A DNA stretch of 64,000 nucleotides from contig WRPG01000008.1 of assembly GCA_009773355.1 (NCBI GenBank), forward strand, positions 1 through 64,000, read 5' to 3'. The notes below the pieces were generated by a model. That model did not search any database. It was not told the origin of the DNA and saw only the letters and a list, made by a program, of their open reading frames with translations. Shown piece after piece: positions 8,592 through 64,000 of this stretch (positions within the stretch are counted from its first letter, which is position 1; the number at the start of each line of letters is the position of its first letter). Source of the stretch: Limisphaerales bacterium (GTDB lineage: Bacteria > Verrucomicrobiota > Verrucomicrobiia > Limisphaerales > SXTU01). The position numbers were made by a program, and so were the translations under genes.

Positions 8592-8833
8592 TTTTTTAGC
8601 CACGGATGGAACACGGACGAAACACGGATTGGGGAGAAGAAGCAGGTCGCGCTGCTTTGCCCAAAAACCTCTGCGGCTGTCCCGGCTCTGCGGTGTCTGC
8701 CCAGAGTTTAGCACCGCAGAGACGGGACGGACGCAGAGGCCGGGGTTCAAGGGAGCAACCCGTGAGTCTTGGCTCGTTGGGTCTCTCCTGAGCTCCTCCG
8801 TGTTCAATCCGTGTTTCATCCGTGGCTAAAAAT
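8592..8833. repeat. Nested inverted repeat filling the intergenic space
   Basis: The outer arms are TAGCCACGGATGGAACACGG (from 8599) and its near-complement ending ...TTCATCCGTGGCTA at 8828. Inside is a second inverted pair: CTCTGCGGCTGTCCCGGCTC (from 8670) against a stretch reading GCACCGCAGAGACGGGAC (from 8711). The whole 240 bp can fold into a long compound hairpin and carries no convincing gene. It lies between two co-directional genes and could be a dispersed palindromic element or an RNA processing/termination structure. Confidence 0.7.
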
Positions 8834-10307: not shown

Positions 10308-11206
10308 TTGCCGCTGCTCTTGAGCTTGGCCTCGATTTGCGCCCGCAACTCCTTCGTGCGCTTCTGGGCGTCGGCGACTTGCTGCGGGGACATCTTTATC
10401 TCCAAGCCATCACGGTTCTTTGCTGCGATTTCTTCTGTCTTGGCGGCGAGATTATACCACGCATACGCCTCCAAATAGTCCTTCTCCACGCCTTGGCCTT
10501 TCTCGTAGCTGAAGCCCAGATTGGATTGCGCCAAGGCGTAGTTCTGCTCGGCGGCCTTGCGATACCACTTCACGGCTTCCGCGTAGTCCTTTTCCGCGCC
10601 TTGGCCTTCGTAGTAGCAGCTGCCCAGATTGAATTGAGCCTGGGCGTCGTTCTGCTCGGCGGCCTTGCGATACCATTTCACGGCTTCCCCGTAGTCCTTC
10701 TCTACGCCTTGGCCCCTCTCGTAGCTGAAGCCCAGATTGAGTTGAGCCGAGGCGTAGTTCTGCTCGGCGGCCTTGCGATGCCACTTCACGGCTTCCGCGT
10801 AGTCCTTCTCCACGCCTTTGCCCTTCTCGTAGCAGACGCCCAGATTGTATTGAGCCTGAGCGTAGTTCTGCTCGGCGGCCTTGCGATACCATTTCACGGC
10901 TTCCGCGTAGTCCTTCTCCACGCCTGTGCCCATCTCGTAGCTGCCACCCAGCCTGGATTGAGCCTGGGCGTGGTTCTGCTCGGTGGCCTTGCGAAACCAC
11001 CTCACGGCTTCCGTGTGGTCCTTCTCCACGCCTTCGCCTAGGTAATAGCAGAGGCCCAGATTGGATTGAGCCTGGGCGTCGCCCTTCTCGGCCTTGGCTT
11101 TGTCTTCTAGGAATTGCTTGCGCAGCGCTTCGCTTTGCTGCGCAGGTGCGGATGGCAAAATCAGACTGTCGATGCAGAGCAGCACCGCGATAAGTGTGGT
11201 TCTCAT
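10304..11206 (-). CDS. Secreted Sel1-repeat protein
   Basis: 300 residues. A signal peptide (residues 1-22, ending near PSAPAQQ) precedes six Sel1 (TPR-like) repeats of 36 residues between about 42 and 250. Each carries the pattern A-x-A-Q-x-N-L-G and YAEAVKWYRKAAEQN. The repeats are so alike at DNA level that a 108-bp tandem repeat is visible. The C-terminal 40 residues form a charged helix. Sel1 proteins are protein-protein interaction scaffolds. The gene overlaps both its upstream neighbour (11203-11206) and the DUF1501 gene (10304-10307) by four bases, indicating a tightly coupled operon. Confidence 0.9.
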   Translation of the reverse strand: MRTTLIAVLLCIDSLILPSAPAQQSEALRKQFLEDKAKAEKGDAQAQSNLGLCYYLGEGVEKDHTEAVRWFRKATEQNHAQAQSRLGGSYEMGTGVEKDYAEAVKWYRKAAEQNYAQAQYNLGVCYEKGKGVEKDYAEAVKWHRKAAEQNYASAQLNLGFSYERGQGVEKDYGEAVKWYRKAAEQNDAQAQFNLGSCYYEGQGAEKDYAEAVKWYRKAAEQNYALAQSNLGFSYEKGQGVEKDYLEAYAWYNLAAKTEEIAAKNRDGLEIKMSPQQVADAQKRTKELRAQIEAKLKSSGK

Positions 11207-11745: not shown

Positions 11746-14302
11746 TTAACAGCTAGCGCGTTTTCGACTCCATCTTCCGAACAAGTCTAGCATTCGGTTT
11801 TGTGGCTGGCTTGGCAAGCGGGCGGTTGGGTTTCTGGCCTACACCTCGAACATCCCCCCAAGACCGGCGACCCCACGCGCGTAGGGCCGCCGGCCCAGAG
11901 GAGTCTCGTCCCACCGGGTTGCTCAACTCCGCAACATCTGCTCGTTTCAAGTCAGTCAACATACAGAAAGGCGTTGCTCGTGAGCAGCACGCGGGCGAGG
12001 CCGGCCCAGGCGAGTTCGGTGTCGTTGGCCGGGGGCTTTTCGAGGGTGGTGAGCTTGGTGCGGTAAGTGGTGAGGAAGGAGAGGGCGTCGCTGACTTCGC
12101 TGTCGCTCGGCGCGCGGCCGTGGGCCATCGCGAAGGCTAGGCGGATACGTTTCGAGTCGTCGCCCGATTCGGCGAGCAGACGGCGGGCGAAGGACTCGGC
12201 CTGCTGCTGCACGAAGGGCGAATTCATCAGGTAGAGCGTCTGCGTGGGCGTGGTGGTGGGTAGGCGTTGCGCGACGCTGAGGTTCGGGTCGGCGGCGTCG
12301 AAGAGCGCGAGGAAGGGATGGCGACGGTTGCGCTGCTGCATCAGGTAGAGGCTGCGATGGTCGCTGTCGTAAACGGCGAAGAACGGGTTGTGGATGGTAA
12401 AGCGCCACGTTGCCATGTCGGGGAACGGGTGCGGGCCGGGCACGGTGCGATTGAGCCGGCCGCTCACGGCGAGCATGGCGTCGCGGATGGACTCGGCGTC
12501 GAGCGGACGGCGGGCGTGCCGCCAGAGCCAGACGTTCGCCGGGTCCTTCTTCAGGTTTGCCGCGTGGTCGTCGCTCGCGAGTTGATAGGTTTGCGAGCGC
12601 ATGATGAGCCGGTGCAGCGCCTTCACGGACCAACCGGACGCGATGAACTCGGACGTGAGCCAGTCGAGCAACTCCGGGTGCGTGGGCGGTTCGCCGCGCA
12701 GGCCGAAGTCGCTGGGCGTGGGCACGAGGCCCGCGCCGAAATGCCATTGCCAAACGCGGTTCACGAACACGCGCGCGGTGAGCGGGTTACTCGGGCGCGT
12801 GAGCCAGTCGGCGAGTTCGAGGCGACCGCTGCCAGTCGAGCCGGCGGGGAGTTGGTCGCCGCCGAGCACGTCGAGGAAGCGGCGCGGGGCTTCGGCACCG
12901 AGCTTGTCCGGCTCGCCGCGAAGCTGGATATGCACGTTGACGGGCTTGTCCTCGCGCACGCCGTAGGCCACGGGATACAGCTCCTTCGCGGTTTCGGCCT
13001 CGCGGAGTTTCGTGGTCGCGGCGAGGTCGGCATCGAGCTGCTTGAGCCGCGCAGTTAAGTCAGCGGGCGGCGCAGCGGGCAGCACGACGGGGCCGGTGCC
13101 CGGCTCGGCGAAGGGCGTTTCGAGCAAGGCGATGTTGTCGAGGTCGCGCTCGGGCGCGGGGCCGCTGACGTGGCCGATGGCGTCGCAGATGAAGGTGTCG
13201 GCCACGCCGTCCCAGTTCGCGCCGAGCGGTTTGTCCGCGAACGTCGTGAGGTCGCCGACCACGCCGACCGCACCGGAGTAAGTCTTCTTCGCCGGGTCGA
13301 GCGTGAGGCGAAGCGTGTGCCAGGTGCCGGGCTGGAGCTGGCGGAGGACTTCCCATTTCGCGCCGTTGCGGAGCGCGAGTTCCGTCGCAGTCACGCTCAC
13401 TTCCACTGCGAGCGACGCGATGACGCCGCGCCCGAGATAGAAGCGATACGCGCCGGATTTGTCGGTCGGCGCGACGGTGCGGAAGTCCACGCTGAAGTGC
13501 ATTTGCTTGCCGGGCGCGGCCTTGAGCGGGCGGTTGAAAACGTAGCGCACGCCGTTGTTGGCCTTGCCGGTGCCGACGCGCACGCCGCGTGTGCCAACGG
13601 GGTGGATGTGGGCGAAGGGGCTTTGAGCTTCGGCCAAAACCTTGTTCGGCCCTTCGGACAGCCACGGCGCAGTGGGCGGCTCGCCGAGCTTCTGCAATTC
13701 GAAGCCGAGGTCCGGGCCGCCGCCGATGGATTTGTTGTCGAGCGCGACGCGGTCGGCTTTGAGCTTCGCGAGTGCGGCGTCGAGGCGGGCGAGTTCGGCG
13801 GCCTTGGCTTTGTCGAGCCGCGCAGCTTCGGCGGGCGCGACGAGCGGAGGAAAGTCGGAGGGGCGCTTCTGTTCCTCGCCGCCGGGGAACGCCCACTTGG
13901 TGCTCTGGAAGATGCCGTAGAGCGCGTAGTAATCGCCCATGTTGACCGGGTCATACTTGTGGTCGTGACATCGTGCGCAGCCGAGCGAGAGGCCGAGCAG
14001 CGAGCGGCCCACGGAGTCAATGGCGTCGGCGAAATCGAGGTGCTGGTAGTCTGGCGAGGGCTTGTAGCCGTAGCGTTTGCCGATGGCGAGGAAACCGGTG
14101 GCGGTGATGCGGCGGGGGTGAACTCGTTGAGGGGTTGGTCGGCGTTGAAGGCGTTCACGACCCAGTCGCGATACTTCACCGCCTCACGCACCGGATAGTC
14201 CGCGCCGTCGCCGGCGGTGTCGGCGTAACGCGCGACGTCGAGCCAGTGACGGCCCCAGCGCTCGCCGTAGGCGGGGGAGGCGAGCAAGCGGTCGATGGCA
14301 TT

Positions 14303-14330
14303 GGCGATTGCCGATTGCCGATTGCCGATT
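14303..14330. repeat. Four-heptamer array in the DUF1549 gene
   Basis: One GGCGATT unit is followed by three GCCGATT units on the plus strand, read on the coding strand as SIGNRQSAIAN. The same four units in the same order recur at 26857-26884 inside the MetE-like gene. The array sits in a loop before DRLLASPAYGERWGRHW, where family members vary in length. Confidence 0.75.
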
Positions 14331-14966
14331 GAGGAAGACTCACGCTCGAACGCCTCAATCTCGGCGGGCGTTGGCGGCAGGCCCGTGAGGTCGAAGGTGG
14401 CGCGGCGGATGAACACGCGCGGGTCGGCGGGGGGATTGGGCGTGAGGCCTTGTTGTTGCATCCGTGCGAGCACGAATCGGTCGAAGGGCTGCTGACTCCA
14501 AGAGTTCGCCTGCGGAGTCGGAGGCTGCGGATGCGTGAGGGGTTGGAAGGCCCAGTGTTTCCGCACGGCGGCGGGGTCCACGCCGGATTTGGCGACGGCG
14601 ACGCCTTCGCGCGGGTCGGGGGCGCCGAGCTTCACCCACTGTTCGAGCGCGGCGACTTCCTCGGAGCCGAGCGCGCGCTTGGGCGGCATCTGAAGCGACT
14701 TGTCCTTCCGGCGCACGGCTTGGATGAGGCGGCTCTTCTCCGGTTCGCCGGGGATGATGACGGGGCCGTGGTCGCCGCCTTTTTGCCAGCCGGCCTTCGT
14801 GTCGAGACGGAGGCCGGACTCCTGTTTCTTCTCGCCGTGGCACTGCTGGCAATGCGTGACGAAGAGCGGGCGGATTTTCGCCTCGAAGAAGGCGTGGCCG
14901 TCGGAGGCAGCGGACAAATTGAACGACAAGAAATGCAGGCCAGCGATTGAGGCGGCGAAGGCCCAC

Positions 14967-18348: not shown

Positions 18349-19728
18349 ATGAAACGAAGATCACATACCGACAAGGTGCTCGCCCTTCTCCGCGCCCATG
18401 AATCACGCAATGTGACCTTCATGGAGGCGGACGGCTCATGGCCCATCGTCTGGACCCGCGCGCGTGGCGTGAATGTCTGGGACGCCGAGGGGCGAAAGTA
18501 TCTCGATCTCACGGCGGCGTTTGGCGTGGCGGCGGCGGGGCACGCGAACCCGCGCGTCGTTCGCGCCGGGCAGCGCCAGATGGCCACGCTGCTGCACGCA
18601 ATGGGTGACGTGCATCCGCATCCGCTGAAAGCCCAACTGGCGCAAGAGTTGTCGCGGCTGACGTTTGAGCGGTGGGCATCGGCCAGGTTCAAGGTTCAAG
18701 GTTCAAGGTTCAAGGTTGGCCGTTCAGCGGGCAAAACCATCTTCTGCAACTCGGGCTTCGAGGCGGTGGAAGCGGCCCTCAAGACCGCCACGTTGGCGAC
18801 GGGCAAGCGCGGCGTAATCGCGTTCGAGGGCGCGTATCACGGGCTGGGCTACGGGGCGCTCAACGTCACGCACCGCGAGCACTTCCGCGGTCCGTTCCGG
18901 TCACAGCTCGGGGAGTTCGGGCACTTCCTGCCGTTCCCCGTGGTAGCCGCCGACGTGAGGAGGCGGAACTCAACGGATGCCGAACAGCTCCGCCTCCTCA
19001 CGTCGGCGGCCACGAGGCTCCTCCGTCGCGGCGACATCGGGGCGATTCTCGTCGAGCCGATCCAGGCGCGGGGCGGCATCCGCGTCCCGCCGCCGGAGTT
19101 CCTCCCGTTGCTGCGGCAGTTGTGCGACAAGCACGGCGCGCTGCTCATCCTCGACGAGATTTATACCGGCTTTGGGCGCACGGGCAAATGGTTCGCCTGC
19201 GAGCACAGCGGCGTGGTGCCGGACGTGATTTGCCTCGGCAAAGCGCTCACCGGCGGCTTCCCGCTCTCGGCCTGCGTGGGCCGCGCGGACGTGATGGACG
19301 CGGCGTGGCCCGCCTCGACCGGCGAGGCGATTCATACCAGCACCTTCCTCGGCCACCCGGTCGGCTGCGCGATGGCGCTGGCGAACATTGCGGAGATTCG
19401 GCGGCTGAAACTCGTGGAACGGAGCGCGCGGCTGGGCGAGTGGCTGTTGGCGGAGTTGTTCAAGGTTCAAGGTTCAAAGTTCAAGGTCGTCTGCCGTGCG
19501 CGTGGCGTGGGCTTGATGGCGGGGCTGGAACTCTTGCGCGCTGACGGCTCGCCGGCCACCGCCGAGTCGCTCGCGATCATCAAGCGGTTGCTACACCGGG
19601 GTTTCATCTTCCTGCCCGAGGGCGAGCACGGGAACGTCGTCGGCTTCACCCCGCCGCTCACCATCACGCAAACCCAGCTTCGCCGCGCGGTGCGGGCGCT
19701 GGCGGAGGAACTCGCCGTCCTGCTATGA
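18349..19728 (+). CDS. Class III (PLP-dependent) aminotransferase with three repeat-derived insertions
   Basis: 459 residues from the ATG preceded by GGAGGT at a good distance; a TTG 21 bp upstream is less likely. Class III landmarks are present: [45 protein letters not shown] (PLP-binding Asp about residue 268) and [14 protein letters not shown] (Schiff-base Lys about 297), then [17 protein letters not shown]. Related enzymes transaminate acetylornithine, 4-aminobutyrate or similar omega-amino donors; the exact donor is not evident. Residues of about 112-121 and 369-378 ([20 protein letters not shown]) come from heptamer arrays, and about 197-222 from a palindromic repeat. All are in frame and absent from ordinary relatives. 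The stop overlaps the rsmA start (ATGA). Confidence 0.9.
18685..18712. repeat. Four-heptamer array (AGGTTCA) in the aminotransferase gene
   Basis: Four perfect AGGTTCA units followed by a partial AGGTTGG. Translation gives [12 protein letters not shown] between the N-terminal domain and the GKTIFCNSG motif. The same unit family recurs 770 bp later in the same gene and orientation. Confidence 0.8.
18941..19013. repeat. GCCGACGTGAGGAGGC palindromic repeat in the aminotransferase gene
   Basis: The left arm GCCGACGTGAGGAGGCGGA is mirrored by the right arm TCCGCCTCCTCACGTCGGC (from 18989) across a 21-bp loop. The element is read in frame as part of an inserted loop ([14 protein letters not shown]...SAA). 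The same arms occur at 22491-22584 and as a half-copy near 41311. Confidence 0.8.
19457..19484. repeat. Second four-heptamer array in the aminotransferase gene
   Basis: Units TGTTCAA, GGTTCAA (twice) and AGTTCAA code for [11 protein letters not shown] in a surface region before the [11 protein letters not shown] motif. Unit sequence and orientation match the array at 18685. Confidence 0.75.
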
Positions 19729-21465: not shown

Positions 21466-23355
21466 ATGAGCGCCCATCCCGGTTTCGGTGCCCACACCGA
21501 CCCCAGCTTCAAATCGCAGCCGCGCTCGACTGGCGAGGTCGTGCGCCGCGTCGGCGTGTATCTGCGGCCTTACAAGCTGATGGCGCTCGGCACCATCGCC
21601 TTCGCGCTGCTCTCGCTGGCGGCGGCGTTCACCTACCCGAAGCTCACGCAGCACGTCATTGACGAGGTCATCACGAAGAAGAACGCCGACAGCCTCGCCC
21701 CGGTCATGGGCTTGCTCATCGGCGCGTTCTTCCTACGCGAGCTGTTCACCGGCCTTCGCATTCGCCTCAACAACGAGCTGGAGCAGAAGGTCATCCTCGA
21801 CATCCGCCGCGATGTCTACGCCCGCTTGCAACGCCTCCCCGTCGGCTGGTTCGACCAGCGTGCGTCCGGCGACCTGATGACGCGCGTGATCGAGGACGTG
21901 AACTCGATGGAGCGCCTGCTCATTGACGGCACCGAGCAGGGCACCGTCGCCGTCCTCAGCATCATCGGCGTGCTCATGATTCTCTTCTGCACGAACCCCC
22001 TGCTCGCCGGCATCGTGCTTATTCCGTTCCCCATCCTAGTTGGTGGCGCGCTCTGGTATACCCTCACCGCCCACAAGCGCTACCGTGCCCAACGCCAGGC
22101 TGCCGGTGCCATGAACGCACTGCTCATGGACAACCTCCAGGGCATCCGCCAAATCAAGTCCTTCGGTCGCGAGCGGCACGAGGACGCGCGTTTCGGTGCC
22201 CGCGCCGAAGACCTCCGCCAAGGCACGCTCACCGTCATGCGCGCGTGGTCCATCTACTCGCCGGCGATGGCCTTCGCCTCCTCGCTCGGCTTCGGGCTAG
22301 TGCTCTGGTTCGGCGGCACGCAAATCCTTGCGAACAAGATGACCGTCGGCGAGTTGGTGCAATTCCTCCTCTACCTCAGCTTCTTCTACGATCCAATCGC
22401 CCGCCTTCACGGGCTGAACCAGATGCTCCAGTCCGCCCGCGCCGCCAGCGAGCGCGTCTTCGACATCATGGACGCGACGGAAGAGCGCGATGTAGCAGCC
22501 GACGTGAGGAGGCTCACTTCAAACACGCAACACGCAACACGCAGCACGGAATCCGGTCAGAGCCTCCTCACGTCGGCTGCTACACGGATGCGCGGCGAAG
22601 TCCGCTACGAGAACGTCGGCTTCCAATACGGAGCGGACCGCGTCGTCCTCAAATCCATTTCGCTCCACGCCCAGCCCGGCCAGATGACCGCGCTCGTCGG
22701 CCCCACCGGCGCGGGCAAATCTACTCTCGTCAACCTCCTCCCCGCCTTCTACCAAGCCACCTCCGGCCGCGTGTTCATTGATGGCGTGGACACCCGCGAG
22801 CTGCCGCTGGAAACGCTGCGCGAGCAAATCAGCGTCGTTGCCCAGGAGCCGTTCCTCTTCAACGGCACCATCCGCGAGAACATCCTCTACGGCCGCCTCG
22901 ACGCCTCCGAAGCCGACCTCCACGCCGCCGCGAAGGCCGCCAACTGCCACGACTTCATCACGCGCCTGTCCGACGGCTACGACGCCCGCGTCGGCGAGCG
23001 TGGCGTGAAGTTGAGCGTCGGCGAGAAGCAGCGCGTGAGCATCGCCCGCGCGCTGCTCAAGAACGCGCCCATCCTCATCCTCGATGAGGCCACCGCCAGC
23101 GTGGACACGCAGACCGAGAAGCTGATTCAGGAGGCGCTGGAGCGGCTCATGGCCGGCCGCACCAGCTTCGTCATCGCGCACCGTCTCAGCACCATTCGCA
23201 AGGCCGACCAAATCCTCGTCCTGCGCCACGGTGAAATCGTCGAGCGCGGCACCCACGAGGAACTCCTCGCCACGGACGGCCTCTACGCCAGGCTCGCGCG
23301 CATCCAGAACACCACCTTCATCGAGGAAAGCTTCGAGAAGCTCGCGGTGAGCTGA
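21466..23355 (+). CDS. ABC exporter, MsbA-like (fused membrane and ATPase domains)
   Basis: 629 residues. The N-terminal half carries six membrane segments (for example LMALGTIAFALLSLAAAF and APVMGLLIGAFFL) and the exporter coupling region YARLQRLPVGWFDQ. The ATPase half has Walker A GPTGAGKST, a Q-loop VVAQEPFLFNG, signature LSVGEKQR (canonical LSGGQ changed at two positions), Walker B ILILDEATA and the H-loop IAHRLSTI. As in MsbA-type homodimers it probably flips lipid or lipid-linked substrates across the inner membrane. Residues of about 342-373, between membrane and ATPase domains, are a repeat-derived insertion (AADVRRL...LTSAATR). It stands alone, just downstream of a tRNA. Confidence 0.92.
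   Translation: MSAHPGFGAHTDPSFKSQPRSTGEVVRRVGVYLRPYKLMALGTIAFALLSLAAAFTYPKLTQHVIDEVITKKNADSLAPVMGLLIGAFFLRELFTGLRIRLNNELEQKVILDIRRDVYARLQRLPVGWFDQRASGDLMTRVIEDVNSMERLLIDGTEQGTVAVLSIIGVLMILFCTNPLLAGIVLIPFPILVGGALWYTLTAHKRYRAQRQAAGAMNALLMDNLQGIRQIKSFGRERHEDARFGARAEDLRQGTLTVMRAWSIYSPAMAFASSLGFGLVLWFGGTQILANKMTVGELVQFLLYLSFFYDPIARLHGLNQMLQSARAASERVFDIMDATEERDVAADVRRLTSNTQHATRSTESGQSLLTSAATRMRGEVRYENVGFQYGADRVVLKSISLHAQPGQMTALVGPTGAGKSTLVNLLPAFYQATSGRVFIDGVDTRELPLETLREQISVVAQEPFLFNGTIRENILYGRLDASEADLHAAAKAANCHDFITRLSDGYDARVGERGVKLSVGEKQRVSIARALLKNAPILILDEATASVDTQTEKLIQEALERLMAGRTSFVIAHRLSTIRKADQILVLRHGEIVERGTHEELLATDGLYARLARIQNTTFIEESFEKLAVS
22491..22584. repeat. Perfect 25-bp inverted repeat enclosing a four-heptamer array, inside the ABC exporter gene
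   Basis: The arms at 22491-22515 and 22560-22584 are exact reverse complements (core GCCGACGTGAGGAGGCTC). The 44-bp loop contains four heptamers at 22522-22549 (AACACGC three times, then AGCACGG). The whole 94 bp is read in frame in the linker before the ATPase domain, showing a heptamer array nested in the other palindrome family. Confidence 0.85.
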
Positions 23356-26204: not shown

Positions 26205-27260
26205 TCAGAGGCCAAGCTCGTTGCTCACGCGCTGCACTCCCGCCACCATGTTCGCCAGCTTCTGTTTCGCCGCCCAGCGCGCGGTCTGCGAGAGGCCGCA
26301 GTCGGGGGCGAAGGCGAGCTTCTCCGGCGGGGCGTGCTTGAGGCAGGCGCGGACGCGCGACGCGATGTCCTCCGGCGTCTCGATGTAGTAGCTCTTCACG
26401 TCCACGATGCCCACGGCGGCGATGTGCCGCTTCGCGATTTCGCCGATGACCTCCAGCTCCGCAAACTCGCGGCTCGCCATCTCGACGTGGATTTCGTCCA
26501 GGTGCAGGTCGAGAAACGCCGGGAACATCGGCGCGTAGCGGCGCGGGCCGACGGCGCGGCCCTTGTAGTTGCCGAAGCATAGGTGCGTGCTGAGGTGGCA
26601 CTTGCCCGCGACCGCCTCGACGGTGCGGTTGAAGATGTTCACGAAGCGCCTCGGGTCTTCGCGATGCGCGTAGCAGCTCATGCTCGGCTCATCCACGCAA
26701 ATCTCCGTGCAGCCCGCGCGCACGAGCGACTCCAGCTCTGCGCGCACGAGCGGCAGCAACGCCTCGGTCAGCTCCCAGCGGTTCTTATATTGGTCATTCG
26801 GCAGCAGCCGTCCGCTCAGGGTGTAAGGCCCCGGCACAGACGCTTTCAGCGTGATTGGCGATTGCCGATTGCCGATTGCCGATTGGGCAATGCGCTTCAG
26901 CCGATCGAAATCTTCCACCGCCCCCAGCCCACGCGGCGCGCGCAGCTCGCCGATAACCTTGTGCTTCCCGCGCTGGTCGTGCGCCGGTGGGCCGAAGCGG
27001 CGCGGCGGTGCGCTCTCCAGTTCGATGCCCTCGATGAAGCCGTAGAAGCTCAAGTTGAAGTCCAGCCGCGTCTGCTCGCCATCGGTGATGACATCGAGGC
27101 CGGCGTCGAGCTGGTCCTTCACCGCGATGGCCACGGCGTCGTCCACCATCTCAGCGCGGTCGGCGTCGCCAAACTGGCCGAGGTGCTGGCAGGCGAATTC
27201 CAGCCAGCCGGGAAACGGGTAGCTGCCGATGACGGTCGTGCGGAGTGGTTGGACTTTCAT
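26205..27260 (-). CDS. Cobalamin-independent methionine synthase C-terminal-like enzyme
   Basis: 351 residues from the ATG followed by KVQPLRTTVIGSYPFPGW; a longer reading upstream has no family similarity. It corresponds to the catalytic C-terminal barrel of MetE. Zinc ligands are visible as His and Cys in STHLCFGNY, Glu in HVEMASRE and Cys in FAPDCGLSQ. The methyl-donor-binding DEPSM is also present. Short MetE-like proteins of this size occur in many bacteria and may use methyl donors other than methyltetrahydropteroyl-triglutamate. Residues of about 125-134 (AQSAIGNRQS) are an insertion encoded by a heptamer array. The last 100 bp are duplicated at 25326. Confidence 0.85.
   Translation of the reverse strand: MKVQPLRTTVIGSYPFPGWLEFACQHLGQFGDADRAEMVDDAVAIAVKDQLDAGLDVITDGEQTRLDFNLSFYGFIEGIELESAPPRRFGPPAHDQRGKHKVIGELRAPRGLGAVEDFDRLKRIAQSAIGNRQSPITLKASVPGPYTLSGRLLPNDQYKNRWELTEALLPLVRAELESLVRAGCTEICVDEPSMSCYAHREDPRRFVNIFNRTVEAVAGKCHLSTHLCFGNYKGRAVGPRRYAPMFPAFLDLHLDEIHVEMASREFAELEVIGEIAKRHIAAVGIVDVKSYYIETPEDIASRVRACLKHAPPEKLAFAPDCGLSQTARWAAKQKLANMVAGVQRVSNELGL
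26857..26884. repeat. Four-heptamer array in the MetE-like gene
   Basis: One GGCGATT plus three GCCGATT units, identical in order and sequence to the array at 14303-14330, with the three bases to the left also shared (ATT). It is translated in the minus frame as IGNRQS-type residues within a loop. Confidence 0.8.
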
Positions 27261-28626: not shown

Positions 28627-29643
28627 TTAATCGCGCGCGGGGTCAAAGCCCAGGGCATTCGCCGCCGAACCGTAGGCCCCGGCGTAGTCGCCCAGCTCCG
28701 CGCGCACTATCCGCGCCTGATGCCCGCCGGCCTGCCACTCGTAGTGGCGGACGTAGCGCTCCAGCGGCGCGAACAGCGTCTCACCCGCGCGGGCGATGCC
28801 GCCGCCGATGATGACCGCGTCCGAGTCGAGGACGTTGATGAGCGAGCTGATGCTGCAACCGAGCGCGCGCACGGAGCGGTCCCAGATTTCCTTCGCTGCC
28901 GCGTCGCCCTTGATGGCGGCGGCGACCAGCTCGTGCGTGCTGGCGAAGCGGCCCTTCGTGCGCTCGCGGATGAACTTGTTGCCCATGAAGTGTTCCAGCG
29001 AGCCGGGCGTGTTGAAGTCGTCGCGCGGGCCGTTCCAGTCCACCGTGATGTGGCCGAGATGTCCCGCGCGGCCAATCGCGCCACGCAGCAGGTGCCCGTC
29101 CACCATCGCCGCGCCGCCGACGCCGGTGCCGAGCGTGAAGAGCATCACGTCGCGCAGCCCGCGCGCCGCGCCGCGCCAGACTTCGCCGAGCAACGCGGCG
29201 TGGGCGTCGTTGAGAATCGGAATCGGGCGGGGCGACGCGAGGTAGTCCGTCCAGTCGAGCCGCTCCAAGCCGAGCAGCCGGCCCGGCATCACGGCGATGC
29301 TGCGCGCGTCCTTCGCCGCCAGGCCCGGTGCGGAGAGGCCGATGCCCGCCGGCTCGCCCAGTTCACGCCGCCACGCGCGGATGAGCGTGCGGATTTTTTT
29401 CGCCCACTCCATGTCGCGGTCCACGAACGGCACGCTGCGCTGCCGGAGCTTCTCGCCGGTCGCCGTGACCGCGACGGCTTTGATGCTCGTGCCGCCGAGG
29501 TCGAGGCCGAGGAAGTAGTTTTGAGTTTTGGGTTTTGAGTTTTGAGTTGAAGGCGTGGCGGCGCGAACGGCCGACTTGGAACCGGTCGCGCTGGGCGCAC
29601 CCGACTCAGAACTCAGAACCTTGAACTCAGAACCCTTCTTCAT
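28627..29643 (-). CDS. ROK family sugar kinase
   Basis: 338 residues. The ATG at 29643 overlaps the SDR stop (ATGA). ATP-binding LGLDLGGTSIKAV (about 42-54), the catalytic NDAHAALLGE, FTLGTGVGGA and the C-terminal AVIIGGGIARAG are all present. The usual ROK zinc Cys cluster is not seen; the corresponding region reads GHLGHITVDWNG. It phosphorylates glucose or a related hexose in the cytoplasm. ROK proteins normally begin directly with the ATP motif. Here about 40 extra N-terminal residues are encoded by an inverted pair of heptamer arrays. Confidence 0.88.
   Translation of the reverse strand: MKKGSEFKVLSSESGAPSATGSKSAVRAATPSTQNSKPKTQNYFLGLDLGGTSIKAVAVTATGEKLRQRSVPFVDRDMEWAKKIRTLIRAWRRELGEPAGIGLSAPGLAAKDARSIAVMPGRLLGLERLDWTDYLASPRPIPILNDAHAALLGEVWRGAARGLRDVMLFTLGTGVGGAAMVDGHLLRGAIGRAGHLGHITVDWNGPRDDFNTPGSLEHFMGNKFIRERTKGRFASTHELVAAAIKGDAAAKEIWDRSVRALGCSISSLINVLDSDAVIIGGGIARAGETLFAPLERYVRHYEWQAGGHQARIVRAELGDYAGAYGSAANALGFDPARD
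29518..29632. repeat. Gene-less inverted pair of four-heptamer arrays in the ROK leader
   Basis: The left array (29518-29545) is made of GTTTTGA units with one GTTTTGG in second place. The right array (29604-29632, complement) is made of GTTCTGA units with one GTTCAAG in second place. The two are inverted and 58 bp apart, giving a 115-bp element with the same terminal organisation as the elements at 60278 and 62223 but no gene inside. It is translated as the first 40 residues of the kinase. Confidence 0.75.
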
Positions 29644-58854: not shown

Positions 58855-60273
58855 CTAAATCTGCTCGAAGTAACGCTGCTTCTCCCAGTCCGTCACCGCG
58901 TTGCTGAACGCCTCGTGTTCCAGCCGCGCGTGGTGAGTGTAGAAATCCACCACGTCGTCACCGAAGGCCGCGCGGGCGAGTTTTGACTTCTCAAAGTGAT
59001 CAGTCGCATCGCGCAGGGAGCTGGGCAGGCGGGCGAGCTTCGGGTCCACGTAGGCGTTGCCGCGATACTCGGGGCCGCAGTCGAGTCCCTCGCGCACGCC
59101 GGCCATGCCAGCAGCGAGCATCGCGGCAAAGGCGAGATACGGGTTCGCGTCCGCGCCGGGCATCCGGTTCTCGATGCGGAAGGAACCGCCGTGCCCCACG
59201 ACGCGGAAGCCGGTCGTGCGATTGTCCACCGCCCACGCCATGCGCGTCGGTGCCCAACTGCCGGGCTGGTAGCGCTTGTAGCTGTTGATGGTCGGACCGA
59301 AGAACAGGCACAGCTCCGGCGAGTATTTCATCAGGCCGCCGAGGAATTGGCGAAACAACTTCGAGCCGCCCGGCCCCGCCTTCTTACGCATTACTTTGTT
59401 ACGCATTACTTCCTCCTGATGCGTAATGCGTAATGCGTAAGGGTCGGCATCCGTCGCCCAAAACAGGTTCTTCCCGCGCTTCCACAGGCTCATGTGGATA
59501 TGACACGAGCTGCCCGCCTCGCCGGGCGCATACTTCGCCATGAACGTCACCGCCTTGCCGTGCTGCTCGGCGAGTTCGCGCACGCCCTGCTTGAAGACCG
59601 CGTGCATGTCCGCCATCGGCAACGGCGCGGCGCAGGTGAAGTTGATTTCGTGCTGGCCGCGGCTCCACTCGCCCTTGCTGCTCTCCACCGGCACGCGCGC
59701 GGCGCACATGCCGTTGCGGATGGCGCGCATCAGTGGCTCGTCGCGCGTCGGCTGCATGAGGTGGTAATCAATCCGGTAATCGCTCGACGGCTGGAGATCG
59801 CGATAGCCGCTCGCGTGCGCCGCGTGATAGGTCTGGTTGAACAGGTAAAACTCCAGCTCGCTCGCGCACAGGCAGGTCTGGCCCTGCTTCGCCAGCAAGT
59901 CCAACTGTCGCCGTAGCACTGAGCGCGGAGCTTCCGCCACCAGCTCACCGCTCTCGCGCACAAAGTCACACAACACCATCGCCGCGCCCGCCTGCCACGG
60001 CAGGACGCGCAACGTGTCCATGTCCGGGCGGAACCCGAAGTCGCCGAAGCCCGTGGCCCAGTTCGCGACCTTGAAGCCATCGAGCGGGTCCATGTCCAGG
60101 TTGACCGTGAGCAGGTAGCTGCACCCGTGCGTCCCGTGCTTCACGACCGAGTCGAGGAAGAAGTCCGCGCGGAACCGTTTCCCCACGAGCCGCCCGAACG
60201 GGTCGGGGAAGGCGACGAGGATGGTGTCAATGTGGCCGGAACGGACTTGGCGGCGGAGTTCGGCAAGGGTCAT
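58855..60273 (-). CDS. Glutamine synthetase family protein (PuuA-like)
   Basis: 472 residues. GS motifs are clear: ASELEFYLFNQTY (metal Glu), GEWSRGQHEINFT, FMAKYAPGEAGSSCHIHMSL (metal His), GSWAPTRMAWAVDNRTTGFR and FRIENRMPGADANPYLAFAA. It is shorter and more divergent than GlnA and fits the group that gamma-glutamylates amines such as putrescine (PuuA). Residues of about 276-297 (YALRITHQEEVMRNKVMRKK) interrupt the region between KNLFW and GGSKLFRQFLGG. They are encoded by an inverted heptamer pair. The ATG is four bases from the left end of the element at 60278, so its leader has been replaced. It is last of an amine operon with the dehydrogenase and permease. Confidence 0.88.
   Translation of the reverse strand: MTLAELRRQVRSGHIDTILVAFPDPFGRLVGKRFRADFFLDSVVKHGTHGCSYLLTVNLDMDPLDGFKVANWATGFGDFGFRPDMDTLRVLPWQAGAAMVLCDFVRESGELVAEAPRSVLRRQLDLLAKQGQTCLCASELEFYLFNQTYHAAHASGYRDLQPSSDYRIDYHLMQPTRDEPLMRAIRNGMCAARVPVESSKGEWSRGQHEINFTCAAPLPMADMHAVFKQGVRELAEQHGKAVTFMAKYAPGEAGSSCHIHMSLWKRGKNLFWATDADPYALRITHQEEVMRNKVMRKKAGPGGSKLFRQFLGGLMKYSPELCLFFGPTINSYKRYQPGSWAPTRMAWAVDNRTTGFRVVGHGGSFRIENRMPGADANPYLAFAAMLAAGMAGVREGLDCGPEYRGNAYVDPKLARLPSSLRDATDHFEKSKLARAAFGDDVVDFYTHHARLEHEAFSNAVTDWEKQRYFEQI
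59384..59444. repeat. Gene-less inverted heptamer pair inside the glutamine synthetase gene
   Basis: The right part (59417-59444) has TAATGCG-type units (TGATGCG, TAATGCG twice, TAAGGGT). The left part (59384-59410) is its inverted counterpart built on TTACGCATTAC, with one extra base. Only a few bases separate them. The 61 bp is read in frame as about 21 extra residues, so the glutamine synthetase stays open. Confidence 0.75.
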
Positions 60274-60277
60274 GGGG

Positions 60278-60852
60278 CGTAAAACGTAATTCGTAAAACG
60301 TAAGGGCGGCTGGCGGCACTATGGCATGGGAATGTTCGTGAGCAATGGTTCGGAGGGAGATTCCGCTTCAAGTGCTGGCGGAGTGGAAGTGTAGCCATAG
60401 GGCGTTGGCTCCTCGCGGAGCACGGTTCCGCGTTGGTCGGGGACCATTGTCAGCAGCAGGCGGATGATTTCCGTCAGCAAATGGATTCGGTGAGTCGAGA
60501 CCGCCTCGCCCAGGACATGCCGGCCCTTGTAATACCAGCCGCGTGCCTCACGGGCGGAACCGAGACCGTATTCGTAGAAGCGCGCCCTGTCCTTTCCCGT
60601 CCCGCGCGAATAGCCTTCTTCAATGTCGGCACTGACGGCTCCCGCCGCGCGGTTGAGTTGGTCAGCGAGACTGATGGTCCGCTTGTCGCCCAGCAGCTTG
60701 GTCGAGTCGTGCCAAGCCAGCTCCGCCAGAAACAGCGCGAACCGGTATGCCTTCGTGTTCCAAACCGAATCGCCACGAATCTCCGCCGGCACCGACTTTT
60801 CCCACTCCGCGTAGTTCATAACGCCCTTACGCTTTACGTTTCACGTTTTACT
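60278..60852 (-). mobile_element. Four-helix-bundle element 1 with inverted four-heptamer ends
   Basis: The left end (60278-60305) is four heptamers of CGTAAAA type whose innermost unit is CGTAAGG. The right end (60825-60852, complement) is four of the same type, also with CGTAAGG innermost. Each end is 28 bp. Between them is a single gene, a four-helix-bundle protein, filling the space almost completely. The left end begins four bases beyond the glutamine synthetase ATG. The right end contains the TAA stop (60848-60850) of the aldehyde dehydrogenase. No target duplication was found. Confidence 0.7.
60319..60819 (-). CDS. Four-helix-bundle protein (23S rRNA intervening-sequence S23/IVP family)
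   Basis: 166 residues. LADQLNRAAGAVSADIEEGY followed by SRGTGKDRARFYEYGLGSAR is the family core (helix 2, then helix 3), and IHLLTEIIRLLLTMVPDQRG is helix 4. About 35 extra C-terminal residues (EPTPYGYTSTPP ... TNIPMP) follow. Family members are known from 23S rRNA intervening sequences and resemble the Avd protein of diversity-generating retroelements. They form pentameric barrels that bind nucleic acid, with no catalytic residues. It is related throughout to the protein at 62249, including the PMP end. The start is six bases inside the right terminal array; the stop is 13 bases from the left one. Confidence 0.9.
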   Translation of the reverse strand: MNYAEWEKSVPAEIRGDSVWNTKAYRFALFLAELAWHDSTKLLGDKRTISLADQLNRAAGAVSADIEEGYSRGTGKDRARFYEYGLGSAREARGWYYKGRHVLGEAVSTHRIHLLTEIIRLLLTMVPDQRGTVLREEPTPYGYTSTPPALEAESPSEPLLTNIPMP

Positions 60853-62215
60853 CGCTCACGAACACATTCTTCACCTCCGTATACCCCTCCATCGCCGCCA
60901 TGCCCAAGTCCCGCCCCAGCCCGCTCTGCTTGTAGCCGCCGAACGGGGCCTCGACATGCACGCTGCTGTGCGAGTTGATGCTGAGGACTCCGCTCTGCAC
61001 GGCGCGGGCGACGCGGAGGGCGCGGCGGATGTCGTTGGTCCAGATGGAGCCGCTCAGGCCGTAGGGCGAGGCGTTCACGGCGCGGAGCATCTGCTCCTCG
61101 TGGTCGAACGGCACGAGGCACACGACCGGACCGAAGATTTCCTCGCGCCAGCAGCGGGTGGACTTGTCCACGTCGAGCAGGACGGTGGGTTCGAGGTAGA
61201 AGCCCTTCGCGGAAGGTCGCTTGCCGCCGCAGCCGAACTGCGTGCCGTGCTTCCGCGCGTCGGCGAGGAAGTCCTCCACACTCGCGCGCTGGCTGGCGGA
61301 CACGAGCGGGCCGAGTTGCGTCGCGTCCAGCGCGGGGTTGCCCACAACCAGTTCCTTGGTGGCGGCGATGAAGCGCTCGGCGAACGGCTCGTAAATGCTG
61401 CGCTCGACGAACACGCGGCTGCGGGCGCAGCAGTCCTGGCCGGTGTTGGCGAAGACGCTCATGGGCGAAGTGTCGGCGGCGCGCTGCCAGTCGGCGTCGG
61501 CGAAGACGATGTTCGGCGACTTGCCGCCGAGTTCGAGCGAGACACGCTTCAGGTCGCGCGACGCGAGTTCCATGATGCGCCGGCCAATCTCGGTCGAGCC
61601 GGTGAAGGAAACCTTGCGCACCAGCGGATGCGTCACGAGCGCGTCGCCGATGGCCGAGCCGGGGCCGGCAAGCACCTGCAACACGCCGGGCGGCAGGCCG
61701 GCGGCGTGCGCGAGCTCGCCGAGCCGCAGCGCGGTGAGCGGCGAGAGCGACGCGGGCTTGAGCACGACGCAATTGCCGGCGGCCAGCGCGGGTGCGGCCT
61801 TCCAGCACGCGATGGGAAATGGGAAGTTCCACGGCACGATGGCCGCGACCACGCCCATCGGCTCGCGTAGCGTGAAGTCCAGCCCGCCGCGCGCGACGGG
61901 GATGGTCTGCCCGCAGAACTGGCCGATGGCCCCCGCGTAATACTCGAACACCCGCGCGCCAAGGCCGATTTCATCGCGCGCATCGCTGATGGGCTTGCCG
62001 ATGTTGGCGCATTCGAGCTGCGCGAGTTCTTCAAGGTGCTCGCGAAGGACGCGGGCGATGTTGAAGAGAATCTCTGCGCGCTTGCCCGGCGCGAGATTAC
62101 GCCAGCCGTCTTCCCATGCGCGCTGGGCGGATTCGACGGCGGCGTGGGCATCGGCAGGCGAGGCGGCGGCGACTTCGGTGAAAACCTCCTCGGTGGCGGG
62201 GTTGATGAGTTGCAT
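60848..62215 (-). CDS. NAD(P)-dependent aldehyde dehydrogenase
   Basis: 455 residues, a little shorter than the 480-500 usual for the family because the N-terminal extension is missing (it begins MQLINPATEEVFTEV). The cofactor motifs PWNFPFPIACWKAAPALAAG and FTGSTEIGRRIM, the general-base Glu in LELGGKSPNIVFADAD and the catalytic Cys in NTGQDCCARSRVFVE are all present. SPYGLSGSIWTND and PFGGYKQSGLGRDLG close the fold. It resembles PuuC/BetB-like enzymes oxidising aminoaldehydes. Placed between permease and glutamine synthetase, it fits amine catabolism. Its TAA stop is inside the right terminal array of element 1, and element 2 begins seven bases beyond its ATG. Confidence 0.92.
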   Translation of the reverse strand: MQLINPATEEVFTEVAAASPADAHAAVESAQRAWEDGWRNLAPGKRAEILFNIARVLREHLEELAQLECANIGKPISDARDEIGLGARVFEYYAGAIGQFCGQTIPVARGGLDFTLREPMGVVAAIVPWNFPFPIACWKAAPALAAGNCVVLKPASLSPLTALRLGELAHAAGLPPGVLQVLAGPGSAIGDALVTHPLVRKVSFTGSTEIGRRIMELASRDLKRVSLELGGKSPNIVFADADWQRAADTSPMSVFANTGQDCCARSRVFVERSIYEPFAERFIAATKELVVGNPALDATQLGPLVSASQRASVEDFLADARKHGTQFGCGGKRPSAKGFYLEPTVLLDVDKSTRCWREEIFGPVVCLVPFDHEEQMLRAVNASPYGLSGSIWTNDIRRALRVARAVQSGVLSINSHSSVHVEAPFGGYKQSGLGRDLGMAAMEGYTEVKNVFVSE

Positions 62216-62222
62216 GCGGGGA

Positions 62223-62806
62223 CGTGTTTCGTGCTCCGTGTTCCGTGATTACGCTTCGGGCATTGGCACTGAACTCAGGAGCGATTCGAGTTCGGATGGT
62301 GAAAAGGCGGGGACGTCTTGAGCGGGCTGCGTCGTGTAGGGAGTCTCGTCTTCGTGGAGAGAGTAGCCGCGAGTGGCGGGGAGCGTGGAGAGAAGCAGGC
62401 GGATGATTTGTGTCTCCAGCTTCATCCGATGGTCGGCCACCGCGTCGCCCAAGAGGTGGCGACCGTCGAAATACCATGTGCGGGTTTCACGCGCGGAGCC
62501 AAGCGCATACTCGTAGAAGCGCGCGCGATCCTTCGGGAATCCTCTTGAGTATCCTTCCGAGATGTTCGCCCCGATAGAGCCGACTGCACGAATGAGTTGC
62601 CCCGCCAAATCTCGCGTGCGTGCGTCGCGGAAGAGCTTTGTTGCGTCGTGCCACGCAAGGTCTGCCACAAACAGTGCCAGCCGATAGGTCTCCTGGTTCC
62701 ACAACGGATCCTCCGTAATTGTTGCCGGAACACCCTTCAACCACTCCTGATAGTTCATATCGTTGATGTCCCTTCGTTAGTCACGGAACACGGAGCACGG
62801 AACACG
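62223..62806 (-). mobile_element. Four-helix-bundle element 2 with inverted four-heptamer ends
   Basis: The left end (62223-62250) is four heptamers of CGTGTTC type with CGTGATT innermost. The right end (62779-62806, complement) repeats them with CGTGACT innermost; the two 28-bp ends differ at two positions. The second unit is CGTGCTC at both ends. A four-helix-bundle gene fills the interior, 584 bp overall. The left end begins seven bases beyond the aldehyde dehydrogenase ATG. The right end holds the TGA (62781-62783) and last residues (SVLRVP) of the permease gene. Confidence 0.75.
62249..62758 (-). CDS. Four-helix-bundle protein (S23/IVP family), second copy
   Basis: 169 residues. The same core as the protein at 60319: LAGQLIRAVGSIGANISEGY, SRGFPKDRARFYEYALGSAR and LETQIIRLLLSTLPATRGYS, and a similar C-terminal tail ending SSVPMPEA. 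The two are roughly half identical by eye. Family function is nucleic-acid binding without known catalysis. The stop codon TAA lies in the innermost left heptamer (62249-62251), so the gene and terminal array are fused at that side. The ATG is 20 bp inside the right array. Confidence 0.9.
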   Translation of the reverse strand: MNYQEWLKGVPATITEDPLWNQETYRLALFVADLAWHDATKLFRDARTRDLAGQLIRAVGSIGANISEGYSRGFPKDRARFYEYALGSARETRTWYFDGRHLLGDAVADHRMKLETQIIRLLLSTLPATRGYSLHEDETPYTTQPAQDVPAFSPSELESLLSSVPMPEA

Positions 62807-64000
62807 CCTCCGGCGGCCCTTTGAATCTCCTCTTCTCCAGCCCGAACCACACCGCCAGCAGCAGCACGACCGTGCCGCCGACAATTTTCACCGCCTGTTC
62901 GTTCGGCGGCTGCATCCCGATGACGATGAGGAAGAGGCAGCCGAGCACGGAGACCACGGCGAGCGGGCGGTAGAGGCGGCCGATTTGCCACGGGCCCATG
63001 CGCGTCCAAGTGCGGCCGTGGGCGAGGAAGCCGGCGGCGACGGGCAGCGCGTAGCTGATGTAGAGGAAGATGACGCACACCGCCGCGATGGTCACGTAGG
63101 GCACGAGGATGGTGAACAGCGCCGCCGCAATCGCCGCGAACCAGACGGCGACGGAGGGCGACTTGCTGGCCGGGTTCACGCGACGCAGCGCATCGGAGAA
63201 TGGCAGGCCGCCGTCGCGCGCGAAGGCGTAGGTCATGCGCGACGCGGACGTGAGCGCGGCGAGGCCGCAGAGGTATTGCGCGGCGATGATGAGCGCGAGC
63301 AGCACCGATGCGAGCGCGTCCGGCAGCGCGGCCTTCATCGTCCACGGCACGACGTTCGCGCCCTGCTCGACGCCTTCCTTCACCGAGGGCATCGCCAGCA
63401 GGATGGCGCAAATCATCACCCAGCCGAACACGCCGGACACCCACACCGAGCGCACGATGCCCTTGGGCACGTTCATCGCCGCGCCGACGGTCTCCTCGCT
63501 CGTGTGCGCCGAGGCGTCGAAGCCGGTGATGGTGTAGGCCGGCAGCAGGAAACCGAGCGCGAAGAGCCACATCAAGTTGTCCTGCTTCGGGAAAACCGCG
63601 CCGCCCTCGGGCAGCCCGCTGAAGTTCGTGAACGTCCACAGGCGCGCCCACTCGAACTGCTTCGTCGCCACCAGCAGCGCCACGGTCAGCACGGTTGCGA
63701 CCGCGAGAATCAAGTATCCACTCAGATCCGTGAGCCGCGTGGTGAGATGGATGCCGTAGTGGTTCAGCAGCCCTTGCGAAAGCGTCATCAGCACGATGAC
63801 CGTGGTGCGAACGGTGGCGGTGTTCGCCTCGGCTGACACGCCGAACGCGGCGGTGGCGAAGTCGTAAGTCCCCGCGTTGATGGCCGCGAGCACAGTGATG
63901 AGGCCGGCGAGGTTGAACCACGCCGTCACCCAGCCGCACGCGCGTCCGCCGAGGATGCTGCCCCAGTGATACAGCCCGCCCGCCGTCGGGAACGCGCTCG
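62781..64000 (-). CDS. APC-family amino acid/polyamine permease (5' end off window)
   Basis: The frame is open from the right edge; the true N-terminus lies beyond 64000. The visible part holds about 406 residues with ten or more membrane helices. The early SAFPTAGGLYHWGSILGG is the helix-2 motif of GABA/choline or amino-acid APC permeases. GFLLPAYTITGFDASAHTSE is the conserved unwound-helix region around residue 155 of the visible part, and LTSASRMTYAFARDGGLPFS is equally typical. It imports an amine or amino acid for the dehydrogenase and glutamine synthetase downstream. The last six residues come from the terminal array of element 2. Confidence 0.9.
   Translation of the reverse strand, partial: SAFPTAGGLYHWGSILGGRACGWVTAWFNLAGLITVLAAINAGTYDFATAAFGVSAEANTATVRTTVIVLMTLSQGLLNHYGIHLTTRLTDLSGYLILAVATVLTVALLVATKQFEWARLWTFTNFSGLPEGGAVFPKQDNLMWLFALGFLLPAYTITGFDASAHTSEETVGAAMNVPKGIVRSVWVSGVFGWVMICAILLAMPSVKEGVEQGANVVPWTMKAALPDALASVLLALIIAAQYLCGLAALTSASRMTYAFARDGGLPFSDALRRVNPASKSPSVAVWFAAIAAALFTILVPYVTIAAVCVIFLYISYALPVAAGFLAHGRTWTRMGPWQIGRLYRPLAVVSVLGCLFLIVIGMQPPNEQAVKIVGGTVVLLLAVWFGLEKRRFKGPPEACSVLRVP

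Follow-up and report, generated by a model that had tools for sequence, protein, structure and literature searches.

The locus studied here raises the question of why genes of one four-helix-bundle (4HB) protein family are enclosed, at two neighbouring places, by facing arrays of short tandem repeats, and whether gene and repeats together constitute a single inserting unit. In the window, i.e., the whole stretch of 64,000 nucleotides of Limisphaerales DNA that was analysed, both cases lie among same-strand genes for an amino-acid permease, an aldehyde dehydrogenase (PF00171; 60848..62215, minus strand), which separates the two elements, and a glutamine synthetase (PF00120; 58855..60273, minus strand), which is the downstream neighbour. 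Element 1 comprises a gene for a protein of 166 aa (60319..60819, minus strand), an arm on the 3' side of the gene at 60278..60306 (plus strand; four heptamers, CGTAAAA CGTAATT CGTAAAA CGTAAGG) and an arm on its 5' side at 60824..60852 (minus strand, on which it reads AGTAAAA CGTGAAA CGTAAAG CGTAAGG). The glutamine synthetase start codon is only 4 nt from the former arm, and the latter overlaps the aldehyde dehydrogenase stop codon (60848-60850). Element 2 comprises a gene for 169 aa (62249..62758, minus strand), a gene-3' arm at 62222..62250 (plus strand; CGTGTTT CGTGCTC CGTGTTC CGTGATT) and a gene-5' arm at 62779..62807 (minus strand), which codes for the last residues and the stop codon (62781) of the amino-acid permease.

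In both elements the arms are inverted, imperfect and four units long, the units being CGTAAAA/CGTAATT for element 1 and, for element 2, CGTGTTC/CGTGCTC, and the arm-to-arm local scores (18 and 23.5, respectively) exceed the 99th percentile of random placements, which is 14. The two proteins are 59% identical and lie above the curated cut-offs of PF05635 (33.8 bits) and TIGR02436 (24 bits), scoring 46.6 and 50.6 bits for element 1 and 58.4 and 61.8 bits for element 2. The element 2 protein is predicted to form a four-helix bundle of four long helices (mean pLDDT 85), whose best Foldseek matches are 2gsc and 2rld (TM by target up to 0.89), with the Avd subunit of the diversity-generating retroelement (DGR) complex 8ube as a weaker structural neighbour. 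Coordinates, profiles and arm scores all agree with the first-pass annotation, which had described a 4HB gene within inverted heptamer arms in both cases. Rfam gave no match in the region of these elements.

About a dozen heptamer arrays occur in the 64-kb window, and the only widely spaced inverted pairs among them are those of the two 4HB elements. A gene-less palindromic array of the element 1 unit class (CGTAATG) lies inside the glutamine synthetase coding sequence (59383..59440); at the same spot a relative (G002, locus L042) has a different, direct array of GCCTTTT. A looser gene-less palindrome is found at 29514-29633. Other repeats are organised differently: two array pairs, of AAGGTTC (18677-18725 and 19454-19490) and of ATTGCCG (14295-14338 and 26848-26895), are direct rather than inverted, and at 22470-22600 a perfect palindrome (GTAGCAGCCGACGTGAGGAGGCTC...GAGCCTCCTCACGTCGGCTGCTAC) encloses an AACACGC heptamer array with its two arms, so that one repeat class lies within another. 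A 108-bp unit is tandemly repeated at 10476-11079 (5.6 copies, 85% identical), and the 11-bp tandem units CACGGATGAAA (8601-8629) and TCCGTGTTCAA (8797-8824) face each other at a distance of about 170 bp and may represent an 11-mer version of the heptamer-arm design.

The architecture is by no means confined to this locus. When the 280 nt upstream of a gene were aligned to the reverse complement of the 340 nt downstream of it, and the threshold was set at the 99th percentile of random placements of the same geometry (n = 1659), matched inverted arms were found at 71 of 83 4HB genes of the same order, as against 10 of the 1659 controls. Most other 4HB genes, when checked, thus have inverted period-7 flanks as the first-pass annotation had expected, the period among the 4HB genes with arms being 7 in 52 and 8 in 12, and the arms measuring about 32 nt. 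A second set, drawn from named Verrucomicrobiota and Planctomycetota genomes, gave inverted arms at 69/83 4HB genes, and among scanned loci that had been chosen for their 4HB genes, widely spaced inverted pairs enclosed such a gene in 81 of 110. The genome to which the window belongs has eight PF05635 genes, most with the same architecture and each with a different heptamer, and the family occurs in 46 of 58 relatives, in up to 16 copies per genome. The same organisation is present at most of twelve loci on cyanobacterial plasmids and on four viral contigs. On Pseudanabaena and Anabaena plasmids (L108 and L109), a 4HB gene with heptamer arrays nearby is flanked by cas6 and cas4 in a CRISPR-Cas locus, which in L109 is annotated as type I-D. 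The number of units proved less rigid than the "exactly four" initially proposed, since four is the commonest count in a range that extends from two to about twenty, with a period of 7 or 8.

Comparison with related genomes indicates that these are insertions. Congeners have orthologous empty sites, occupied by a short spacer of the ordinary kind in which there are no heptamers, arms and gene being absent together; element 1 has such an empty site in G002, and queries made of joined flanks revealed empty sites in congeners for at least six other elements. In Nostoc sp. ATCC 53789, two plasmids carry operons that are 91-99% identical, in which two neighbouring sites are reciprocally filled and empty. 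Arms and gene are therefore one inserting unit, i.e., an insertion element with array ends that is polymorphic for presence between related strains, and the view of the window elements as copies of one compact family is borne out. Conserved arrays that lack such polymorphism were not what the related strains contained.

Recent insertions also reveal a target duplication. A Trichormus variabilis element, compared with 98%-identical empty sites in Nostoc linckia and Tolypothrix, shows the change from AAAAAGTAATTAACAAAT to AAAAAGTAAT-element-GTAATTAACAAAT, with a 5-bp duplication of GTAAT. At a second site, where the empty counterpart is over 90% identical, TTCTA is duplicated in two strains, probably through one event. 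Older elements of Verrucomicrobiota give no target-duplication signal (6 observed vs 9.6 in shuffled sequence), and the 5-bp duplication is therefore claimed only from the two recent Nostoc sites. A truncated element of Nostoc sp. C052 (L217, pC052_E) occupies the same site as L101, having kept its left arm and lost its right end.

The insertion sites are themselves distinctive, a feature that had escaped the first-pass annotation. Measured over 128 elements, the median distance from the upstream stop codon to the outer edge of the arm that follows it is 4 nt, and that from the outer edge of the other arm to the downstream start codon is 5 nt; stop and start are both so placed in 66% of elements vs 9% of random placements. 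Most elements are co-directional with their operon, with a few insertions antisense to their neighbours (L099, L104). At some junctions (L024, L001, L077, L089), the downstream ATG apparently becomes CTG or GTG, or the first codons are overwritten by the insert. Many elements keep to one site across the phylum, and movement must therefore be rare. Indeed, the four commonest sites are clustered on the protein tree (11 changes vs 25 when shuffled) without forming clades, as would be expected of elements that reside at a site for long periods and move occasionally.

The relationship between arm and protein is equally informative. The unit varies from element to element, is common to both arms of one element and is only loosely conserved inside a protein subfamily. 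For example, proteins that begin with MFNFEKL are accompanied by GTTGANR units throughout Verrucomicrobiota and by related GTCNAGA units in Planctomycetota, and mean arm similarity is 11.2 among elements of this subfamily, whereas it falls to 5.6, the shuffled level, in comparison with other subfamilies. The suggestion that the ends are read by periodicity and not by a fixed sequence thus holds across subfamilies, whose units are unrelated, but not within a subfamily, where they are conserved; this combination points to sequence recognition that changes with the protein. In the gene-5' arm C is scarce (9%) and G abundant (39%), so that the arms have a fixed orientation relative to the gene. 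The two arms of one element match with a mean score of 21.9, a value inflated by the arms having been delimited by their mutual match. A fairer count at orthologous sites gave 111 concerted and 119 arm-specific columns, for which reason we claim similarity of the arms and have dropped the idea of strong, base-by-base concerted evolution.

Arm pairs also exist without a gene, which the first-pass annotation had likewise not recorded. These "mini-elements" of roughly 70-90 bp are dispersed in the genome and are far more numerous than 4HB genes. In the genome of the window (G000), the arm pattern of element 1 is matched at ≤1 mismatch by 84 arrays, compared with 8 for a control, and many of the CGTAANN copies form pairs that point inward across a loop of 20-30 nt, often situated at stop|start junctions. 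Dispersed arrays tend to be most abundant where a 4HB element with that unit resides: CGTG arrays number 109 in this genome, 82 in G007 and 84 in G002, all three of which have either element 2 itself or an arm remnant of it, vs 0-8 in the other eight congeners, and outside the genus, genomes whose 4HB genes have CAGT arms also have more CAGT arrays (p = 0.002). There are exceptions. Every congener has CAGT arrays, known carrier or not, and G047 contains 35 CGTAANN arrays with no CGTAANN-armed 4HB gene among the 11 readable of its 12, so that a strict one-to-one match between dispersed arrays and resident 4HB arms fails in that genome. Mini-elements at three orthologous sites have entirely different arms in different congeners. 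At one of these sites (L245 vs L272), the loop is conserved and both arms have switched from CGTAAAA to CGTGTTG, an apparent arm replacement; at the other two, the loop is not conserved either, and the congeners may have acquired separate insertions at the same junction.

How might such elements move? Each carries one gene, has no room for its own promoter, encodes a four-helix protein of the S23/23S-IVP/Avd fold and ends on either side in an array of roughly four units of 7 or 8 bp, the two arrays being inverted relative to each other. Characterised relatives of this fold are oligomeric and bind nucleic acid, and Avd too binds nucleic acid. In the mechanism that we propose, the 4HB protein would bind the arms that belong to its own subfamily, with their 7-nt periodicity, and thereby select which arm pairs move, whether gene-bearing or gene-less, and an enzyme supplied in trans would cut and join the strands at a 5-nt stagger. 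The 5-bp duplication suggests strand transfer by such a transposase-like enzyme acting in trans; no transposase for these elements was identified in the genomes and loci examined. As to the alternative initially offered, of a trans-acting enzyme or an RNA route, the former is still likely, and the RNA or reverse-transcriptase route has been weakened by the 5-bp duplications and by genomes devoid of RVT_1. That the elements belong to a widespread class of compact insertions of this kind, with the roles of the 4HB protein and of the enzyme as given here, may about equally well prove right or wrong.

The most serious competing explanation, which we consider unlikely but worth keeping in view, is that arm pairs are REPIN-like mini-elements moved by another enzyme (e.g., a Y1/RAYT or DDE transposase), and that 4HB genes have repeatedly been caught as passengers. 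The great excess of gene-less pairs over 4HB genes would fit this explanation, as would G047, where the many CGTAANN arrays have no matching gene among those readable. The enclosed gene, however, is nearly always a 4HB gene, not only in the loci selected for such genes but also in both pairs of the unselected window; moreover, arm unit and protein subfamily have stayed paired across a phylum. The counts of Y1 and 4HB genes are weakly correlated (rho 0.38, with genome size alone giving 0.36), but three genomes that have at least three 4HB genes lack Y1_Tnp, which is otherwise common, and six 4HB-carrying genomes have neither Y1 nor RVT_1. Dependence on Y1/RAYT was dropped for these reasons. In addition, to our knowledge HUH/Y1 transposition yields no 5-bp duplication.

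Within a transcript, the arms could instead act as an intervening sequence: they would pair in the operon mRNA, RNase III would cut the stem, the 4HB RNA would be released, and arm complementarity would be kept for that purpose. The same protein family is encoded in intervening sequences (IVSs) of 23S rRNA, where in Coxiella a 28-bp terminal stem is cut by RNase III (PMC4990558), and the predicted arm duplexes of the window elements are strong (-36.8 and -49.1 kcal/mol for elements 1 and 2). The prevailing co-directionality with the operon is also in keeping with such processing; antisense insertions, on the other hand, do occur. Among arm-to-arm mismatches, G.U pairs are not in excess over A.C (116 vs 106), and RNA-stem selection was consequently dropped as the cause of the matching arms. 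Nor are compensatory changes more frequent than arm-specific ones, as the column counts given above indicate, and a stem has no need of a 7-bp periodicity. We regard this explanation as improbable. The more specific idea that the arms are stems of 23S IVSs was ruled out, as the 23S motif is absent from every locus scanned.

Retro-mobility through a DGR-like or group II reverse transcriptase, with the 4HB protein in the role of Avd, is suggested by the structural similarity to Avd of 8ube. Of the 35 genomes that have at least three 4HB genes, however, 23 lack RVT_1, one of them with 16 copies, so that carriers do not need a genome-encoded RVT_1 and dependence on it was dropped, and DNA strand transfer is a better fit to inverted arms and 5-bp duplications. 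We hold it to be very improbable. Plain slippage of short sequence repeats near genes, with no element at all, is scarcely credible, for although simple repeats of heptamers are known to be over-represented in bacteria (PMC4692102), slippage accounts neither for matched inverted arms and target duplications nor for the precise presence or absence of arms plus gene, and the empty sites already refute it.

Returning to insertion elements guided by their 4HB protein, a bolder form of this proposal may be considered, in which they constitute a class with reprogrammable ends. A small non-catalytic 4HB protein would read a 7/8-nt-periodic array written in a lineage-specific word and direct its own gene, together with gene-less pairs throughout the genome, to stop|start junctions; upon a change of the resident protein, the arms at old sites could be replaced by the new word. 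In this extended form the proposal is tentative, and we consider it doubtful that all of its parts will hold.

Among known systems, REPIN/RAYT is nearest in organisation (Bertels and Rainey 2011, PMC3116915; Nunvar 2010, PMC2817692). In both, the dispersed unit is a pair of short repeats in inverted orientation, one resident gene is bounded by that repeat, the location is intergenic, and the repeat type tracks the gene type. Here, however, the resident gene encodes a four-helix bundle instead of a tyrosine transposase, the repeat is a tandem array of 7- or 8-bp units instead of a fixed palindrome, and recent insertions have a 5-bp duplication and sites at stop|start junctions. Nearest in content is the 23S rRNA IVS with an S23p open reading frame, e.g., that of Coxiella, which is a suspected selfish element (PMC4990558) and which shares the protein family and an open reading frame enclosed by terminal inverted repeats about 28 bp long; in contrast, the present elements lie in protein-coding operons, have heptamer arrays as arms and bear no sign of RNA-stem selection. 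In being polymorphic at orthologous sites and, at the two recent sites, flanked by a target duplication of fixed length (5 bp), they resemble transposons and MITEs, from which they differ in having no single conserved terminal sequence per family. Avd of DGRs has a related four-helix fold (8ube), but most genomes with 4HB genes here encode no RVT_1.

Heptamer repeats as such have been described before. Rehm 2015 (PMC4692102) reported G-rich heptamer repeats in Xanthomonas and Nostoc, most often of four units, with 70-75 inverted pairs per genome near the end of the upstream gene; their function was left open, and no element, gene or mobility was proposed. The link to 4HB genes, the empty sites and the target duplications come from the present analysis. 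MacGregor 2015 (PMC4679880) proposed a translational role for TAACTGA direct repeats and named no 4HB or S23 gene. Like these repeats and the cyanobacterial STRR heptamers, the arrays studied here are lineage specific and lie at gene starts, but the TAACTGA repeats are described as direct, whereas the arms are inverted. No paper joining heptamer arms to 4HB genes was found among the open-access papers searched.

PF05635 genes are very common in this lineage and have had no explanation there, and heptameric repeats of bacteria have been noted without a function being assigned to them. If 4HB genes and heptamer repeats are seen as one insertion element that exists with and without its gene, the two questions become open to test. 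This view is also likely to provide the context in which the IVSs of 23S rRNA, and the origin of Avd-type proteins, can be understood.
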